Origin: Clostridia bacterium
GTDB taxonomy: Bacteria > Bacillota > Clostridia > Oscillospirales > CAG-272
Assembly: GCA_017540175.1 (NCBI GenBank)
Contig: JAFYBN010000009.1
Location: 1 to 59,001 of the forward strand
Length of the DNA: 59,001 nucleotides
Reading direction: 5' to 3'
Positions 3,180-58,529 of the stretch are shown piece after piece; position 1 is the first letter of the stretch, and every line of letters begins with the position of its first letter. The notes under the pieces were generated by a model, which was not told the DNA's origin, ran no database searches, and worked only from the letters and a program-made list of their open reading frames with translations. Position numbers and translations under genes: made by a program.

Positions 3180-3208
3180 TTGATTTTCGAAGAACGGTAT
3201 GATATAAT
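3180..3208 (+). promoter_or_regulatory. Promoter of the ExbB/ExbD-like operon
   Basis: TTGATT (3180-3185), 17 bp, TATAAT (3203-3208), about 30 bp before the first start codon at 3241. It indicates that the three genes 3241-4828 form their own transcription unit. Confidence 0.7.
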
Positions 3209-3240: not shown

Positions 3241-3762
3241 ATGGGCTTTTTGGCGTTCGTGCGGAAAATGATCGACAGCGTTTTTGATTTCGCAAACATC
3301 TTGATCTTCATCGTGGCGCTTTTGGCATTGGCGTGCTTCTTCATCGTCAAAAACGAAAACAGCAAGGTCGATCTGAACTTCGAGGAATGGAAGAACGAAA
3401 ACTATTATTCCCGGGACGTCTACCGCAAGCTGAAGTTCGGTTATACGGCCTTTCTCACGTGCATTACCCTCTTCCCCCTGCTCGGCATGCTCGGCACGGT
3501 GATGTCCCTGGTCATGCTGGATTTTTCGGACGCCCAGGGACTCATCAGCGCGCGCAGCAGCTTCTTTGTCGCGCTGACGTCGACGGCGTGGGGGATCATC
3601 TTTGCCATCATCTTCAAGGTTTTGAACGTGTTCATCGCAACAAGCGCCGACGACAATATCCGCAAAATGACGGAACTCATCGACCGCAAGGCGCTGAACG
3701 TCGACAGCCGCCGTGTGAAGGTGGTCGACGTGAAGCCCGGACGCCGCAAATGGAGAAGGTGA
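3241..3762 (+). CDS. MotA/TolQ/ExbB-family proton channel protein (short form)
   Basis: A 173-residue membrane protein with three predicted helices at about residues 17-36, 67-93 and 107-133. The second and third carry the family signature: PLLGMLGTVMSL, then FFVALTSTAWGIIFAI, which match the GLLGTV and AL-TTA-GL blocks of ExbB/TolQ/MotA. The C-terminal tail is basic. It is shorter than ExbB (about 240) but keeps the channel-forming core. It is the first gene of a tight cassette: four bases separate it from the ExbD-like gene at 3767. I infer a stator-like proton channel that converts ion flow to mechanical work; its target is unknown. No TonB, flagellar or outer-membrane gene is near. The family is well supported, the role is not. 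Confidence 0.8.
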   Translation: MGFLAFVRKMIDSVFDFANILIFIVALLALACFFIVKNENSKVDLNFEEWKNENYYSRDVYRKLKFGYTAFLTCITLFPLLGMLGTVMSLVMLDFSDAQGLISARSSFFVALTSTAWGIIFAIIFKVLNVFIATSADDNIRKMTELIDRKALNVDSRRVKVVDVKPGRRKWRR

Positions 3763-3766
3763 GCGC

Positions 3767-4375
3767 ATGAAGTTCAAGGACGTCACGCTCGATTTTACCT
3801 CCTTGCTCGACGTGATTCTCATCATACTGTTCTTCTTCATCCTGTACAGCGTGTTCGACATGGATCAGGCCATCGCAGAGACGGAGCAGACGCGCGAATC
3901 CTACGAGCAGATGAGCGCCGACCTCGAAGACGAATACCGCCGGAAGCAGGATGCGCTCGACGAGGAGCGGGAGCAGGCGCGCGAAAAGATCGAAGCGGAA
4001 TGGGACAGACTACTCGCTCTCGGGGATGAGAGCGCGGCAAACCAGCGCGCGCTCGACCGGTTCGAGGGGGGCGGAATGCCGACCTTTCGCCTTCTGATCC
4101 CGGACGACGATCCGTCCGGAAACTGGAGCCTGCGCGTTCTGCGCGGGGGCGAGATCGCGGACGAGATCCTCCCGGGCGAGCCGCTGGACGAGCGGATCCG
4201 CGAAGCGCTCGCGACGGTTTTCGCGGAGGATAATGAGGTCATGCTCGTGACCTTTCTGTACGACGGGAACGCGCTCGGCTCAAACCGGCTGTGCGCGGCG
4301 ATCCTCGACGCGTTCGGCAGGGTGGGCGCGGCAAAGAGCGGCTTTTATCTCAACACCATCAATATATCCAGATGA
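3767..4375 (+). CDS. ExbD/TolR-like protein with coiled coil
   Basis: The 202-residue protein begins with a short cytoplasmic stretch and one membrane helix (about 13-30) whose start, DFTSLLDVILIILFFFI, has the ExbD/TolR pattern P-x-x-D-V-x-LVLLIIFM, with Asp15 in the place of the proton-carrying Asp of ExbD. A charged coiled coil (about 34-100, rich in Glu, Arg, Gln) replaces the flexible linker of ExbD. The remaining 104-202 looks like a beta-alpha extracytoplasmic domain. It lies four bases after the ExbB-like gene and twelve before a third protein, so the three are probably made together. The coiled coil is unusual for ExbD and could set the distance to a cell-wall partner. Confidence 0.7.
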   Translation: MKFKDVTLDFTSLLDVILIILFFFILYSVFDMDQAIAETEQTRESYEQMSADLEDEYRRKQDALDEEREQAREKIEAEWDRLLALGDESAANQRALDRFEGGGMPTFRLLIPDDDPSGNWSLRVLRGGEIADEILPGEPLDERIREALATVFAEDNEVMLVTFLYDGNALGSNRLCAAILDAFGRVGAAKSGFYLNTINISR

Positions 4376-4387
4376 GGAGGATCGGAA

Positions 4388-4828
4388 ATGGAAAAGAAAA
4401 AGAAGAGTAAGGTCGGCGGAACCGTGGGAGCGGTCGCCGTGGTTGCGGTCGTGCTCGGCGTCCTCTTCGGAACGGGCAAGCTCGGCTTCGGCAGCGGACT
4501 GGGACTCGGAGGTTCCGCGCCCGAGGCGGAAAAGACCGCCGCTGAGACGCCGGCGGAGACGCCCGCGGACACGCAGGAACGGAGCGGGGAGTCCGAGACG
4601 GATAAGGTCTTCGAGATTCGGGTACAGGGCCGAGAATACAATTATGAGAACGTCACCTACGGCGGAGCGGAGCATCCTTTGGACGATCTGATCGCGGCGC
4701 TCGCGGACGCGGACAAGGACGCGCGGATCCAGTTGATCGTGGAGGACAGCGCGACGAAAAACGCCGTGGACGACCTCAAGGCCGCGCTGACGGCCGCGGG
4801 ATTCACGAACGTGCATTCCGAAGACTGA
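4388..4828 (+). CDS. Small membrane protein with ExbD-like C-terminal domain
   Basis: The 146-residue protein has a Lys-rich N terminus, one helix (about 10-30), an acidic Pro/Thr/Glu linker (about 43-72) and a compact domain (73-144). The domain layout is beta strand (VFEIRVQG), beta (YNYENVTYGG), helix (HPLDDLIAALADADK), beta (RIQLIVEDS), helix (AVDDLKAALTAAGF), beta (NVHS), which parallels the periplasmic domain of ExbD. The helix lacks the conserved membrane Asp, so it would be an accessory or second ExbD-type subunit. GAGGAGG lies just before the start. I do not recognise a named family; the ExbD relation is read from the pattern and needs structure prediction. Confidence 0.6.
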   Translation: MEKKKKSKVGGTVGAVAVVAVVLGVLFGTGKLGFGSGLGLGGSAPEAEKTAAETPAETPADTQERSGESETDKVFEIRVQGREYNYENVTYGGAEHPLDDLIAALADADKDARIQLIVEDSATKNAVDDLKAALTAAGFTNVHSED

Positions 4829-6962: not shown

Positions 6963-8054
6963 ATGATGGCCGTACATTTTGACAGGGAACGCATGGCGCG
7001 CGTCATGGAGACCCATGAGCTGTGGTGGGAAGGAAAGCTGGACAGACCCCTCGTCCACCTCTCCCTCGGAGGGCGGTACCCGGCGGAGGGCAGTCCGCGG
7101 GCGCCCTAGCTGTCGCAGGCGACCTGCGCGGATTTTTCGTGGTCCGCGGAGGAGATCGTCGACACGTTCGATTGGGCGCTCAGCCAAAACGAATACATGG
7201 GCGACGCGTATCCGAGCGTAAATTTCGACGCCTTCGGCCCGGGCGTGCTCGCGGCGTTCTGCGGGGCGCGCCTCGACAACTCCAGCGGCAGGGTCTGGTT
7301 CTGGCCTGCCGAGGACAAGCCGATCTCCGGGATCCACGCGGTCTACGACCCGGAAAACAAATGGGTGAAGCGCATCCGGGACATTTACCGGGCAGGGGTC
7401 TCGCGCTGGGAGGGCAGGGTCATCATGGGCATGCCCGACCTCGGCGGCATCCTTGACGCGGCGGCTTCCCTTGTGGGGACGGAAAATCTCCTTTACGCGC
7501 TCATCGACGAGCCGGAGGAGGTGGACCGCCTGGTCGGTGAGCTCGAGACCGCGTGGCACGCCGCGTACCGGGATTTCGCCGCCGTGCTCGCGCCGCAGGG
7601 CGGCTTCACCGACTGGAACGGACTGCTTTCGAAATCGCCGGCGTATGTTTTGCAGTGCGATTTCTGCTATATGATCGGACAGGAGGCGTTCCGGCGCTTC
7701 GTGCTCGGCACGCTGAGGCGGGACACCGAAAAGCTCACCCATACGATCTACCACCTCGACGGCATCGGGGAGCTGATCCACCTCGACGACATCCTGAGCC
7801 TGCCGCGGCTGAACGCGGTGCAGTGGGTGTACGGGGCGGGCAAGCCGGGCGCGCGGCATTGGCTCGACGTGTACCGAAAAATCATGGACGCGGGCAAGCA
7901 GATCATGATCATCGACGGCGTGGCGGAATTCTTTGACGTCTGGCGGCAGCTCGGGGGCACGCCCTACGCGCGGTGGGGAATGCCCGCCGCCGAGCGGGAC
8001 CGGGCGCTCGCCTTGCTTCGGGAAATCGGAATTCGGGAAGACATCGGGGGATGA
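6963..8054 (+). pseudogene. UroD-superfamily protein gene interrupted by in-frame TAG
   Basis: Read in one frame, 6963-8054 encodes a 363-codon UroD-like protein except for a TAG at 7107-7109 (codon 49). Reading before the stop (ELWWEGKLDRPLVHLSLGG) and after it (LSQATCADFSW, then DAYPSVNFDAFGPGVLAAFCG) joins naturally, so one gene has been split. The rest has the family pattern YHLDGIGELIHLDD and QWVYGAGKP. Such proteins resemble uroporphyrinogen decarboxylase and corrinoid-linked methyltransferases, but the Cys zinc ligands of MtaA-type enzymes are not evident here. GGAAAGGG precedes the start. A restart at ATG 7197 would lose the N-terminal part. The TAG may be a true nonsense mutation, a consensus error or a decoded amber; elsewhere (rnpM) TAG is an ordinary stop. 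The end overlaps the spacer to feoAB by a few bases. Confidence 0.75.
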
Positions 8055-8058
8055 CGGT

Positions 8059-10398
8059 ATGAAGACGCTGAAAGACGCGAAAATCGGAGAGGTTGTCGTT
8101 GTGACGAAGCTGAACGGGGAAGGCGCGCTCCGTCAGCATTTTCTCGATATGGGCGTGATCCCCGGCACGGAGATCACGGTCGTGAAATACGCGCCGATGG
8201 GGGACCCGGTCGAGCTTCTGCTCCACGGCTACAAGCTCACCCTGCGGCTCGAGGACGCCGCGAAGATCGACGTGGAGCCCGCCGGAGAGAAATCCGGATC
8301 AGAGAGCCGCGGGGCGCGCAGAAAGGTCAGCGAGCACCCCGGACTCGGCGAGCCGGGCAAGTACCATCCGAAGGGGAGCGGCGATCCCCTCCCGGACGAT
8401 ACCCTGCTCACCTTCGCGCTCGTGGGGAATCAGAACTGCGGCAAGACCACCCTGTTCAACCAGCTCACGGGGGCGAATCAGCACGTCGGCAATTTCCCCG
8501 GCGTCACGGTCGACCGCAAGGACGGCGCGGTGCGGGGCTACCCGAACACCCGCGTGACCGATCTGCCCGGCATTTATTCCATGTCCCCGTACAGCAGCGA
8601 GGAGATCGTGTCGCGCAATTTCGTCCTCGACGAAAAGCCGAAGGCGATCATCAACATCGTAGACGCGACGAACATCGAGCGCAACCTCTTCCTCACGATG
8701 CAGCTGCTCGAGATGAACATCCCGATGGTGGTCGCGCTCAATATGATGGACGAGGTCACGGCGAACGGCGGAACGGTCGACGTGAACGAAATGGAATCCG
8801 CGCTCGGCGTGCCGGTCGTCCCGATTTCGGCGGCGAAAAACCAGGGCATCGCGGAGCTGATCGAACACGCGATCCACGTCGCGCATTTCCAGGAGCGCCC
8901 CGCGCGGCAGGATTTCTGCGACGAAAGCGATCACGGCGGCGCGGTGCACCGCTGTCTGCACAGCATCTGCCACCTGATCGAGGACCACGCCCGGGACGCG
9001 GAGATTCCCCTGCGCTTTGCGGCGTCCAAGCTTGTGGAGGGGGACGCGCTCGTGCTCGAGAAGCTGAAGCTCGATCAGAACGAGCGGGAAACCATGGAGC
9101 ACATCATCCTCCAGCTGGAAAAAGAAAGAGAGCTGGATCGAAGCGCCGCCGTCGCGGACATGCGCTATACCTTCATCACGAGAGTGTGCGAGGCGTGCGT
9201 GAAAAAGCCGAAGGTGAGCCGGGAAAGCGTGCGCAGCGAAAAGATCGACGCGGTGCTCACCGGAAAGTGGACGGCGATCCCCTTCTTCATCCTCATCATG
9301 GGGCTCGTATTCTGGCTGACCTTCGACATCATCGGCGGGACTTTGCAGGGGCTGCTCGAGAGCGGGATCGAAGCGCTTACCGCCGCGGTTGACCGCGGCA
9401 TGAGCGCGGCGGGCGTGAACGAAACGATCCACGGGCTCGTCATAGACGGCATTTTCGCCGGGGTCGGCTCGGTTCTGAGCTTTCTGCCCATCATCGTCAC
9501 GCTGTTCCTCTTCCTCTCCCTGCTCGAGGACAGCGGTTACATCGCCCGCGTCGCGTTTTTCATGGACAGGCTGCTGCGCCGCATCGGTCTTTCGGGGCGG
9601 AGCATCGTGCCGCTGCTCATCGGCTTCGGCTGCACCGTCCCGGCGGTCATGGCGACCCGGACGCTGCCGAGCGAGCGCGACCGCAAAATGACTATTCTGC
9701 TCACGCCGTTCATGAGCTGCACGGCAAAGCTGCCGATTTACGCCTTCTTTGTGGACGCCTTCTTCGCTGAACACAAGGCGGCGGTCATGATCGGGCTCTA
9801 TCTGCTCGGCATCGCGGTCGGCATCTTCATGGCGTTCCTCTTCAAGGGGACGCTGTTCAAGGGCGAGGCGGTCCCGTTTGTGATGGAGCTGCCGAATTAC
9901 AGAATGCCGGGCGCGAAAAACGTGCTCCGGCTGCTCTGGGAAAAGGCGAAGGATTTTCTGCAGCGCGCCTTCTCCGTCATACTCATCGCGACCGTGGTGA
10001 TCTGGCTCCTGCAGAGCTTTGACTGGAGACTGCGGCTCGCCGCCGATCAGCAGTCGAGCATCCTCGCCACGATCGCAGGCTGGATCGCGCCCGTCATGCG
10101 GCCGCTCGGACTGGGAGACTGGCGCATCTGCACCTCCCTCATCAGCGGCTTCATGGCAAAGGAAAGCGTTGTCTCCACCATGGGCATCCTCTTCGGCGAG
10201 AGCGTTTCCGCCGTGCTGACCGTGCCGTCCGCCGCGGCTCTGCTCGTGTTCTCCCTGCTCTATACCCCGTGCGTGGCGGCGATCACGTCCATTCGGAGGG
10301 AGCTCGGCGGCAAGTGGGCGCTCGGGGTTGTCGTATGGCAGTGCGCCATTGCGTGGATCGCCGCGTCGGTCGTCCATTTGATCGCAATCCTGCTCTGA
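8059..10398 (+). CDS. feoB: FeoA-FeoB fusion ferrous iron transporter
   Basis: The 779-residue protein fuses FeoA (residues 1-75, SH3-like, with GALRQHFLDMGVIPG) to FeoB. The G domain follows a linker: G1 GNQNCGKTT (about 122), switch region VGNFPGVTVDRKDG, G3 DLPGIYS, G4 NMMD and G5 SAAKNQG. The membrane part holds the Gate motifs with conserved Cys in GFGCTVPAVMATR and FMSCTAKLPIY. It imports Fe2+ across the cytoplasmic membrane, with GTP binding controlling the pore. The start at 8059 is the only one that opens cleanly on the FeoA domain; it is four bases after the stop of the preceding gene, so translation is probably coupled. A FeoB-associated protein follows. Confidence 0.95.
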   Translation: MKTLKDAKIGEVVVVTKLNGEGALRQHFLDMGVIPGTEITVVKYAPMGDPVELLLHGYKLTLRLEDAAKIDVEPAGEKSGSESRGARRKVSEHPGLGEPGKYHPKGSGDPLPDDTLLTFALVGNQNCGKTTLFNQLTGANQHVGNFPGVTVDRKDGAVRGYPNTRVTDLPGIYSMSPYSSEEIVSRNFVLDEKPKAIINIVDATNIERNLFLTMQLLEMNIPMVVALNMMDEVTANGGTVDVNEMESALGVPVVPISAAKNQGIAELIEHAIHVAHFQERPARQDFCDESDHGGAVHRCLHSICHLIEDHARDAEIPLRFAASKLVEGDALVLEKLKLDQNERETMEHIILQLEKERELDRSAAVADMRYTFITRVCEACVKKPKVSRESVRSEKIDAVLTGKWTAIPFFILIMGLVFWLTFDIIGGTLQGLLESGIEALTAAVDRGMSAAGVNETIHGLVIDGIFAGVGSVLSFLPIIVTLFLFLSLLEDSGYIARVAFFMDRLLRRIGLSGRSIVPLLIGFGCTVPAVMATRTLPSERDRKMTILLTPFMSCTAKLPIYAFFVDAFFAEHKAAVMIGLYLLGIAVGIFMAFLFKGTLFKGEAVPFVMELPNYRMPGAKNVLRLLWEKAKDFLQRAFSVILIATVVIWLLQSFDWRLRLAADQQSSILATIAGWIAPVMRPLGLGDWRICTSLISGFMAKESVVSTMGILFGESVSAVLTVPSAAALLVFSLLYTPCVAAITSIRRELGGKWALGVVVWQCAIAWIAASVVHLIAILL

Positions 10399-10482
10399 CG
10401 TCTGAGGGGCAGGGGGCGGGAGGCGGCTCGTCCGCCCCGCACAACGCATATCCGCGCATAGAGGCACGGAGGAGGAAGGCGT

Positions 10483-10746
10483 ATGAATTTCTGGGATGTT
10501 TTGATCCTCGCGGCGGTTGCCCTCGCCGTCGCCCTCGCGGCGCTTCAGCTGTATAAAACGCGCAAGCGCGGGGGCTGTTCCTGCGGGGAATGCTCCTCCT
10601 GCGGCGCATGCCCGTCCCGCGGCTCGTGTTCTTCCCGCGGCGCGTGTCCGTCCTGCGGGAAAACGAAGGCAGCAAAGGATCACAAAGTAACCGAAGAAAA
10701 CAAGGACGGCGTCGGAAACGAAGGCAGCGGGGAAAACGAAAGATAA
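10483..10746 (+). CDS. FeoB-associated Cys-rich membrane protein
   Basis: An 87-residue protein with one N-terminal membrane helix (about 4-22), a short basic stretch, then a Cys-rich run with repeated C-x-C and C-x-x-C units (CSCGECSSCGAC, then CPSCGK) and a hydrophilic Lys/Glu/Asn tail. This is the layout of the FeoB-associated family found directly after feoB in Clostridia. It may bind or hand over iron on the cytoplasmic side. CACGGAGGAGG stands just before its start. The number of Cys-Gly-Ser repeats looks expanded compared with shorter relatives. Confidence 0.85.
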   Translation: MNFWDVLILAAVALAVALAALQLYKTRKRGGCSCGECSSCGACPSRGSCSSRGACPSCGKTKAAKDHKVTEENKDGVGNEGSGENER

Positions 10747-10783: not shown

Positions 10784-12013
10784 ATGAACGACAGGGAAAT
10801 CGTGCGCGATCTCGCGCGGGCATACGCCGCGGTCGCGTTTTCCGACGAAACGAAGGCAAAGGCCGCGAACTGGGGGCGGATCAACGCCCTTGACGCGAAC
10901 GCGCGCCCGCCGATCATCCTCGATCAGCTTCCGTGGCACGAGTTCGCGGGGCACGAGGATCTGAAATGCCTGTGCGCCGATCCGTTTCTCAGGGACATGG
11001 AAAACTATTTCCGCTGCGAGCTCTTCCGCGTCCGGCATTTCGGCGCGGACCTCGTCCTGCCGCCGTATTACCCCTGTTATAAGGTCATGGACGACACGGG
11101 GTACGGCATCTCAACCGTCACGCAGGACGAAAGCGGGCACGCGGGCGCTCAGACCCATCTCTTCGTCGACCAGCTTCCGGACGACGCCTCGCTCGCGAAG
11201 CTGAAACGGCGTGTCGTCACCGCGCGCCCCGAGGAGACGGCGCGCAGAAAAGAGCGCATGGAGGACGTGATCGGGGACATCCTCGAGGTGCGTCCCACGG
11301 GGGTCATGATCTGGGCGGCGATCTGGGACCGGATCACGTTCTGGAAGGGCGCGGAGGCGTGCCTCTGGGCGCTGATCGACGAGCCGGATTTCGTGCGCAG
11401 AATGATGGCGCGGCTCGTGGAGATCGAGATGGACTACGTCGACCAGCTCGAGGCGCAGAATCTTCTTGCGGCGGGCGTGGGGACGAAGTGCCACTGCGTG
11501 GAGACCTACGTCGACGAGGAGCGGTGGAGACGGATCGATCAGGCGCACATCCGCACCGAGGACTGCTGGATCTCGGGCGCGGCGCAGATCTTTTCGGAGG
11601 TCTCCCCCGCCATGCACGACGAGTTCGAGATCGAATTCATGAAGCCCCTCTACGACCGCTTCGGCTGGGTGAATTACGGCTGCTGCGATCCCTTAGACAG
11701 AAAGATCGACATCGTGCGCAAGCTCAAAACGGTGCGCTCCATATCGGCGAGCCCGTGGACGAACGTGGAGATGCAGGCGGAGGCGATGGGCGGCGACTAC
11801 GCCATGATGCGCAAGCCCAACCCCGCCTACGTCCGCGCGGGATACCCCGAGCGCGACGCGGTGGTGAAGGAGACCCGCGCGACTCTGGCGGCGTGCCGGA
11901 GAAACCGCACGCCGGTCGCCTTCGTGCTCAAGGACATCACGACGGTGAGCGGCCGCGTCGAAGGGCTCGGCGAATGGGTCGAGCTCGTGAAAGCGGAGAT
12001 CGAAAACGGATAA
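10784..12013 (+). CDS. UroD-superfamily (corrinoid methyltransferase-like) protein
   Basis: A 409-residue protein of the uroporphyrinogen decarboxylase superfamily clade that is not HemE: it is longer than HemE (about 350), lacks the HemE N-terminal block, and instead has KCHCVETY and NYGCCDPLDRKIDIV. These Cys/His clusters resemble the zinc site of MtaA/MtbA-type methyltransferases, though spacing differs. C-terminal blocks VRSISASPWTN and MRKPNP are typical of uncharacterised clostridial members. It may transfer methyl or act on a tetrapyrrole or sugar-derived substrate; no corrinoid protein is nearby. GGGAGGAG precedes the start. The broken gene at 6963 belongs to the same superfamily but not the same subgroup. 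Confidence 0.7.
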   Translation: MNDREIVRDLARAYAAVAFSDETKAKAANWGRINALDANARPPIILDQLPWHEFAGHEDLKCLCADPFLRDMENYFRCELFRVRHFGADLVLPPYYPCYKVMDDTGYGISTVTQDESGHAGAQTHLFVDQLPDDASLAKLKRRVVTARPEETARRKERMEDVIGDILEVRPTGVMIWAAIWDRITFWKGAEACLWALIDEPDFVRRMMARLVEIEMDYVDQLEAQNLLAAGVGTKCHCVETYVDEERWRRIDQAHIRTEDCWISGAAQIFSEVSPAMHDEFEIEFMKPLYDRFGWVNYGCCDPLDRKIDIVRKLKTVRSISASPWTNVEMQAEAMGGDYAMMRKPNPAYVRAGYPERDAVVKETRATLAACRRNRTPVAFVLKDITTVSGRVEGLGEWVELVKAEIENG

Positions 12014-37628: not shown

Positions 37629-40808
<3,180 letters not shown>

Positions 40809-58311: not shown

Positions 58312-58353
58312 CTGTGCATCCGGGACAGAGTCCCGAATGAGAAAGGACGGGGT

Positions 58354-58513
58354 CAGCAGCGCTCCACGGTTTGTGACAGTCCATGCCGTATTCCGGCATG
58401 TCCCAAGGAGCGCCCGGGTCCGCGCCCCTTTCGGCGGATCGGCCTCCCGCCCGGTCAGCGTCCCTCCCGTCGGGACTCGTGGACCGGGGTTCATCCTCTC
58501 CGCGCCTCTGCTG
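58354..58513 (-). promoter_or_regulatory. Lysine riboswitch (L box) aptamer
   Basis: On the minus strand the aptamer opens CAGCAGAGGCGCG (P1 and the AGAGGYGCG consensus) and closes with GTGGAGCGCTGCTG. Inside are CCGCCGAAAGGGG (58425-58437), a stem CATGCCG/CGGCATG (58382-58400) and ACTGTCAC (58373-58380). These match the L-box order. Lysine binding would favour the terminator at 58281-58311, turning the transporter off. Confidence 0.85.
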
Positions 58514-58529
58514 TTTTGATTCTGTCGGT

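Follow-up and report, generated by a model that had tools for sequence, protein, structure and literature searches.

Results

The window, a 59,001-nucleotide stretch of DNA from a member of the class Clostridia, carries three open reading frames on the same strand within 1.6 kb (P1, P2 and P3, Table 1). A purine-rich stretch is visible by eye ahead of the ATG of each. A sigma-70-like promoter candidate lies upstream of P1; it is a sequence match only, and the consensus scan returned two such sites in 4 kb compared with 0.6 in shuffled sequences. Downstream of P3 follows a strong hairpin terminator whose folding energy was equaled in none of 200 shuffles, and which a pattern scan missed because the loop exceeds the length allowed there. 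The two nearest genes beyond the terminator (DUF6171 and an arabinofuranosidase) are on the opposite strand, and a SASA-type esterase gene is located upstream of the trio. The first-pass annotation had described a three-gene cassette under one promoter and closed by a terminator, and the genes, a promoter candidate and the terminator are all found here. Its label Clostridium is too narrow, whereas the class Clostridia is correct and also includes Ruminococcus albus 8 (present NCBI name Hominimerdicola alba 8), a second carrier of the trio. One relative in the window's own genus is labeled uncultured Ruminococcus sp.

Table 1. Features of the trio locus and of related loci (window coordinates unless a locus is named)
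Feature	Position	Strand	Details
Promoter candidate, sigma-70-like	3180..3208	+	TTGATT-17 nt-TATAAT, extended -10, 10/12 consensus matches
P1 gene	3241..3762	+	173 aa
P2 gene	3767..4375	+	202 aa
Codon of P2 membrane Asp15	3809..3811	+	conserved (see text)
P2 outer alpha/beta domain, residues 104-202	4076..4372	+	AF2, order b-b-b-a-b-a-b
P3 gene	4388..4828	+	146 aa
P3 outer domain (predicted ExbD fold), residues 72-146	4601..4825	+	AF2 and fold search
Hairpin terminator after P3	4872..4923 (paired)	+	-34.3 kcal/mol, z -4.98
Second P3-domain protein beside trio	L012:8941-9393		lipoprotein-like signal (by eye)
Second P3-domain protein beside trio	L057:4668-5138		lipoprotein-like signal (by eye)
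Second P3-domain protein beside trio	L134:5428-5940		lipoprotein-like signal (by eye)
Patatin (with DUF6363), metallophosphatase and M20 peptidase downstream of trio	L053:9096-12106		Pfam, this locus only

We located the complete, ordered trio at 51 distinct loci, counting loci at the same place once (L060-L062, L072 and L026 versus L012; L007 versus L011; L090 versus the window) and leaving out L075, which has P1 without P2 or P3. Chance does not account for this recurrence of an identical gene order at 51 loci, and the trio is a real unit. P1 is found at E 1e-5 in 27 of the 29 genomes of the R. albus 8 genus, all 27 of which have P1-P2-P3 in order; the co-occurrence with the ExbB-like gene that the earlier annotation had made its test is thus conserved in related genomes. 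Among 247 sampled genomes of the family of R. albus 8, 30 match P1, 24 of them strongly (E 4.2e-15 or better), and P2 and P3 lie beside P1 in 23 of these 24; the exception is G939 (L139), where a strong P1 has neither P2 nor P3 detected beside it. Around the window the distribution is sparser. Its genus has P2 homologues in 3 of 25 genomes, the window's own included, and P1 homologues occur in 3 of 98 relatives, all from this genus and each accompanied by P2 and P3. P1 matches number 2 in 395 genomes of the window's family (its own included) and 9 in 391 genomes of its class, with the trio present in three (window, G796 and G491) and absent in six. In a phylum sample of 398 genomes 34 match P1, only the window's own strongly; we obtained loci for 30 of the 34, one being the window's own, and found no convincing P3 gene in the other 29. 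The P3 profile matches weakly (E 0.005 to 0.6) in 10 of these 29, and seven of the 10 hits are an ordinary ExbD-type gene.

A scan of a species-genome collection with P2 returned at least two loci (uncultured Ruminococcus sp. and R. albus 8). Viral contigs scanned with P2 held no relative, and the window's P1 has zero matches in plasmid and phage records, which together with the presence in 27/29 genomes of one genus fits a housekeeping role. The pairwise distance matrices of P1, P2 and P3 are correlated (Spearman 0.64, 0.73 and 0.65, compared with a permuted maximum of 0.31), these raw values including shared species descent.

Judged by its sequence, P1 is a short channel subunit of the ExbB/TolQ/MotA type, in line with the short ExbB/TolQ core read from motifs before. 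It exceeds the cut-off of the Pfam family MotA_ExbB (35.8 versus 22.9 bits), which is matched at E 0.01 or better by 30/30 aligned P1 members, and it has no long cytoplasmic tail. A profile search with P1 recovered both MotA (best E 3.8e-5) and ExbB, with glucagon receptors scoring between them; its ALTST motif is, we presume, closer to MotA than to ExbB. In a tree of 81 sequences (47 of the 51 trio P1s and 34 of 41 others, the motif search having failed on 11), 46 of the 47 trio P1s fall into one clade (support 99/94). The non-trio sequences form separate groups of 22 and 12, which we named ExbB-type and MotA-like by length and, for some of them, by an adjacent ExbD gene. L083, a long-branched trio P1, is placed outside the main clade, and a monophyletic group of all 47 has no support (39/0). 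Besides P1, neither the window's genome (93.5% complete) nor that of R. albus 8 contains a MotA/ExbB protein that exceeds the family cut-off.

P2 residues 6-39 score 24.3 bits against Pfam ExbD, just below the cut-off of 25.4, and 8/30 P2 members match this family at E 0.01 or better. The membrane aspartate claimed for P2, Asp-15, sits within the helix motif LDFTSLLD and is indeed kept in all 51 P2 proteins, the window's included. As a reference for profile comparisons we used 17 ordinary ExbD-type neighbors of ordinary P1 relatives, with reversed profiles as controls; the P2 membrane segment matches this reference with P 7.3e-6 and an HHalign probability of 84% (controls 0.04-0.05). An AF2 model built on a three-sequence alignment (pLDDT 82, pTM 0.52) predicts a continuous helix for residues 4-100 followed by an outer domain, and by arithmetic on this predicted helix ∼69 residues, or ∼10 nm, would extend past the membrane. 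The first-pass annotation had drawn this segment as a coiled coil replacing the ExbD linker. The long helix is supported by the model, and a coiled coil is suggested for two of the ten stalks (of 30) that we put through a crude heptad test: the observed value was reached by 2 of 1000 shuffles for L006 and by 31 for L033, both under 5%, compared with 177 for the window's stalk and 61 to 380 for the remaining seven. The order of strands and helices in the P2 outer domain, as seen in the three-sequence model, is the same as in ExbD. A Foldseek search with this model gave zero matches at E 0.001 or better, and the outer-domain profile gave no signal against ordinary ExbD (P 0.53, controls 0.03-0.04). 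Apart from ExbD and a weak match of its helix to MotS, P2 received no informative name from Pfam, NCBIfam, PADLOC or PHROGs, and PDB sequence profiles link neither P2 nor P3 to ExbD.

P3 contains one predicted membrane helix and a Gly-rich stretch. Its best hydropathy window (19 residues) is acid-free in 51/51 proteins, including that of the window and counting for R. albus 8 its second, lipoprotein-like P3; the membrane-helix profile gives no signal against ExbD (P 0.14). The outer domain was modeled from a four-sequence alignment with pLDDT values of 61-86 by block, the membrane part lacking a confident model, and a fold search with the outer-domain model placed ExbD and TolR above every other solved fold. 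The outer-domain profile matches ordinary ExbD with P 1.2e-4 (reversed controls 0.006-0.011; HHalign probability 54% here and 54-65% across the comparisons). The P3 outer domain is thus predicted to have the ExbD fold. Model, profile and acid-free helix windows agree with the earlier description of a third membrane protein with an ExbD-like outer domain and no Asp; of the ExbD-type fold expected for both P2 and P3, the P3 half holds, and the P2 outer domain shows the ExbD order of strands and helices but no match by profile or, at E 0.001, by Foldseek. P3 reaches no Pfam cut-off, and NCBIfam, PADLOC and PHROGs likewise provide no informative name. A match to FliL (E 5e-4) was set aside, as it is confined to the basic, membrane and low-complexity part of the protein.

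The profile comparisons cross: the P2 helix and the P3 outer domain match ExbD, whereas the P3 helix and the P2 outer domain do not. These are single comparisons with modest probabilities, and they agree with the P3 model. From the sequences it looks as if the two halves of ExbD sit on two proteins in a motor branch of single-membrane bacteria.

We compared 33 neighborhoods and found no gene besides the trio common to them, the next largest cluster comprising eight loci (the simple gene caller used here missed trio members in L126, L058 and others, and its rows do not enter the trio counts). Of the conserved trio and common partner sought by a neighborhood survey, the trio was recovered and the partner was not. 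Within the R. albus 8 genus, 23 of the 25 core-type loci have a patatin motif downstream; the sequence stretches of L044 and L050 stop within 90 bases of P3. In six core-type loci viewed more widely, patatin is followed by a metallophosphatase and then an M20 peptidase. In R. albus 8 (G822, L162), G845 (L163) and G840 (L164), P3 adjoins patatin at what seems to be the former core locus, and the surrounding 14 kb contain neither P1 nor P2. The whole genome of G840 lacks a P1 match at E 1e-5; R. albus 8 and G845 carry the trio at a second site, followed by a fourth gene encoding a lipoprotein-like second P3-domain copy. Second P3 copies are present in G822, G845, G885, G981 and G1015, some with a lipoprotein-like signal recognized by eye. 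P3 can hence outlive the motor genes; kept beside patatin without P1 and P2 in three genomes, it may serve a purpose independent of them.

Nothing in the sequence had pointed to an outer membrane. Omp85 was found in 0/7 trio genomes and in 7/14 control genomes, being a single outer-membrane marker scored in seven genomes of which G006 is 82% and G011 78% complete and two have no stated completeness. Among the trio proteins, Pfam reports no match of the TonB/TolA, TonB-dependent receptor, TolB or Pal kind, and no OmpA domain in P2 or P3.

Discussion

The family assignments, the aspartate invariant in 51/51 P2 proteins and the 51 loci support the original reading of the locus as an ExbB/ExbD-type unit. 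Comparison with known systems places the trio next to, rather than within, each of them. It shares with ExbB-ExbD-TonB an ExbB-family ring protein, an Asp-bearing ExbD-type helix, a third single-pass protein and an ExbD-fold outer domain; it differs in that Omp85 was found in none of the trio genomes tested, the ExbD fold resides on the Asp-less P3, and P2 has a long predicted stalk and an outer domain of its own in place of a ∼20-residue linker. PMC12905483 gives this linker length for ExbD, and ∼90 Å from inner membrane to wall in Gram-negatives. TolQ-TolR-TolA is likewise a three-part motor, and the fold search with P3 has TolR structures among its first matches, but no outer membrane marker was found in trio genomes and no helical TolA-like arm is predicted in the modeled part of P3. 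MotA-MotB also combines a ring protein with an Asp helix; P1, however, lies outside the MotA-like clade, P2 is without an OmpA-type domain, and the window's genome has no second MotA/ExbB protein above the cut-off. The non-flagellar relatives (ExbBD, TolQR, AglRS and some uncharacterized proteins) are treated as one structurally plastic group in PMC12505986. The trio is a new form of this known motor family, unusual in distribution and build, for which we infer a motor function; listings from the open-access literature showed no description of the trio.

We consider it probable that the trio is an envelope motor of monoderm Clostridia, built from three subunits and driven by an ion gradient. 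An ion-driven 5:2-type motor acting outwards on the envelope is the best-supported reading, in which we infer ring, stoichiometry, ion and task from the family, and the trio looks like a distinct branch of such motors in single-membrane bacteria. By analogy with ExbBD, TolQR and MotAB, P1 would probably form a pentameric ring with two P2 helices in its pore, and ion passage by the P2 aspartate would turn ring and helices relative to each other. The ∼10-nm P2 stalk would convey this motion towards the wall, where the P2 outer domain would act. P3, whose acid-free helix makes it an unlikely ion-carrying helix, would most likely dock at the side of the ring, as TonB and TolA do; the model for this position is the TolQRA study PMC12583513, in which TolQR binds one to three TolA. 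The ExbD-fold domain of P3 would work outside, contacting peptidoglycan, P2 or a surface partner. For the motor as a whole, the most likely task would be envelope upkeep, wall- or membrane-linked and Tol-like, not import across an outer membrane. A more specific version is tentative, and we rate it somewhat below an even chance: single-membrane Clostridia would have a dedicated 5:2-type motor branch with the halves of ExbD parted, in which the P2 helix drives a rigid ∼10-nm stalk, the ExbD fold sits on the separate, non-motor P3, and mechanical work is done on the wall or its lipids without an outer membrane. Counted against the motor reading, which we hold with moderate confidence, are models built on few sequences (3-4), modest profile links, the patchiness in the window's genus (3/25), L083 outside the clade, the lone P1 in G939 and the genomes that retain P3 with patatin.

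The patatin neighbor suggests another reading, in which the motor drives or senses lipid work with the adjacent patatin-like phospholipase as a machine for membrane-lipid or lipoteichoic-acid handling. The motif follows 23/25 core-type loci (with L044 and L050 too short), Pfam identifies patatin and a neighboring metallophosphatase at one locus, and patatin and P3 remain adjacent in the three genomes where P1 and P2 are gone. We regard this as unlikely all the same, because the window, L006, L011, L012, L023, L024 and L057 show no patatin motif, and among 20 stretches (8-14 kb, including the lone-P1 locus L139) around members outside the R. albus 8 genus a single one contains it; patatin is therefore not in the common core. 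The trio might instead be a gated ion channel or envelope sensor without mechanical output, in which P3 and its additional copies would report the state of the wall. Such a role would be consistent with the second, partly lipoprotein-like P3 copies (G822, G845, G885, G981 and G1015) and with the lack of a further gene common to the 33 neighborhoods; against it, PMC12905483 describes the family that shares this ring and Asp helix as one of motors, and we give the sensor only a small chance.

Slightly less probable still is a Ton-type system that has become cryptic or vestigial and lost its function, in line with a survey's proposal for monoderm Ton systems (PMC12204202 mentions those in monoderm Clostridia as likely non-functional). 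Patchiness in the window's genus and the apparent loss of P1 and P2 at three loci would fit decay, but 51 intact loci with the aspartate in 51/51, 27/29 genomes of one genus and a clade uniting 46/47 P1s speak for maintenance. A Zorya-like anti-phage system is very improbable. ZorA belongs to the same superfamily, and PADLOC gives weak ZorA matches (E 0.031 for the window's P1, E 0.001 for that of R. albus 8); against this, P1 is short and without the long cytoplasmic tail, there is no ZorB match and no OmpA domain in P2 or P3, no defense gene was recognized nearby (eight neighboring window proteins lack a PADLOC match at E 0.001), and the trio is present in 27/29 genomes of one genus.

If the trio is an envelope motor, it would bear on how this family is understood. 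ExbBD and TolQR are seen as carriers of inner-membrane energy to the outer membrane, and a conserved relative in bacteria seemingly without one would show that such motors have uses with the wall alone. It would also make the unsolved problem of force transmission out of the ring easier to approach, and would call into question the view of such monoderm genes as non-functional. R. albus is a rumen fiber degrader; among the genomes sampled from the R. albus 8 genus nearly all carry the trio, and the cultured members of this genus make these proposals testable.

Elsewhere in the window, FeoA and FeoB domains are joined in a single frame of 821 aa (7933-10746), followed by a FeoB-associated Cys-rich protein that scores slightly below its Pfam cut-off. 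The proteins encoded at 7197-8054 and 10784-12013 have no Pfam match at E 1e-5; by eye, we take them to resemble uroporphyrinogen decarboxylase-type proteins. A protein of 1059 aa (37629-40808) combines a glycosyl hydrolase-like 10 domain with an Amidase_3 domain, and a lysine riboswitch (65 bits) is located on the minus strand at 58349-58518.
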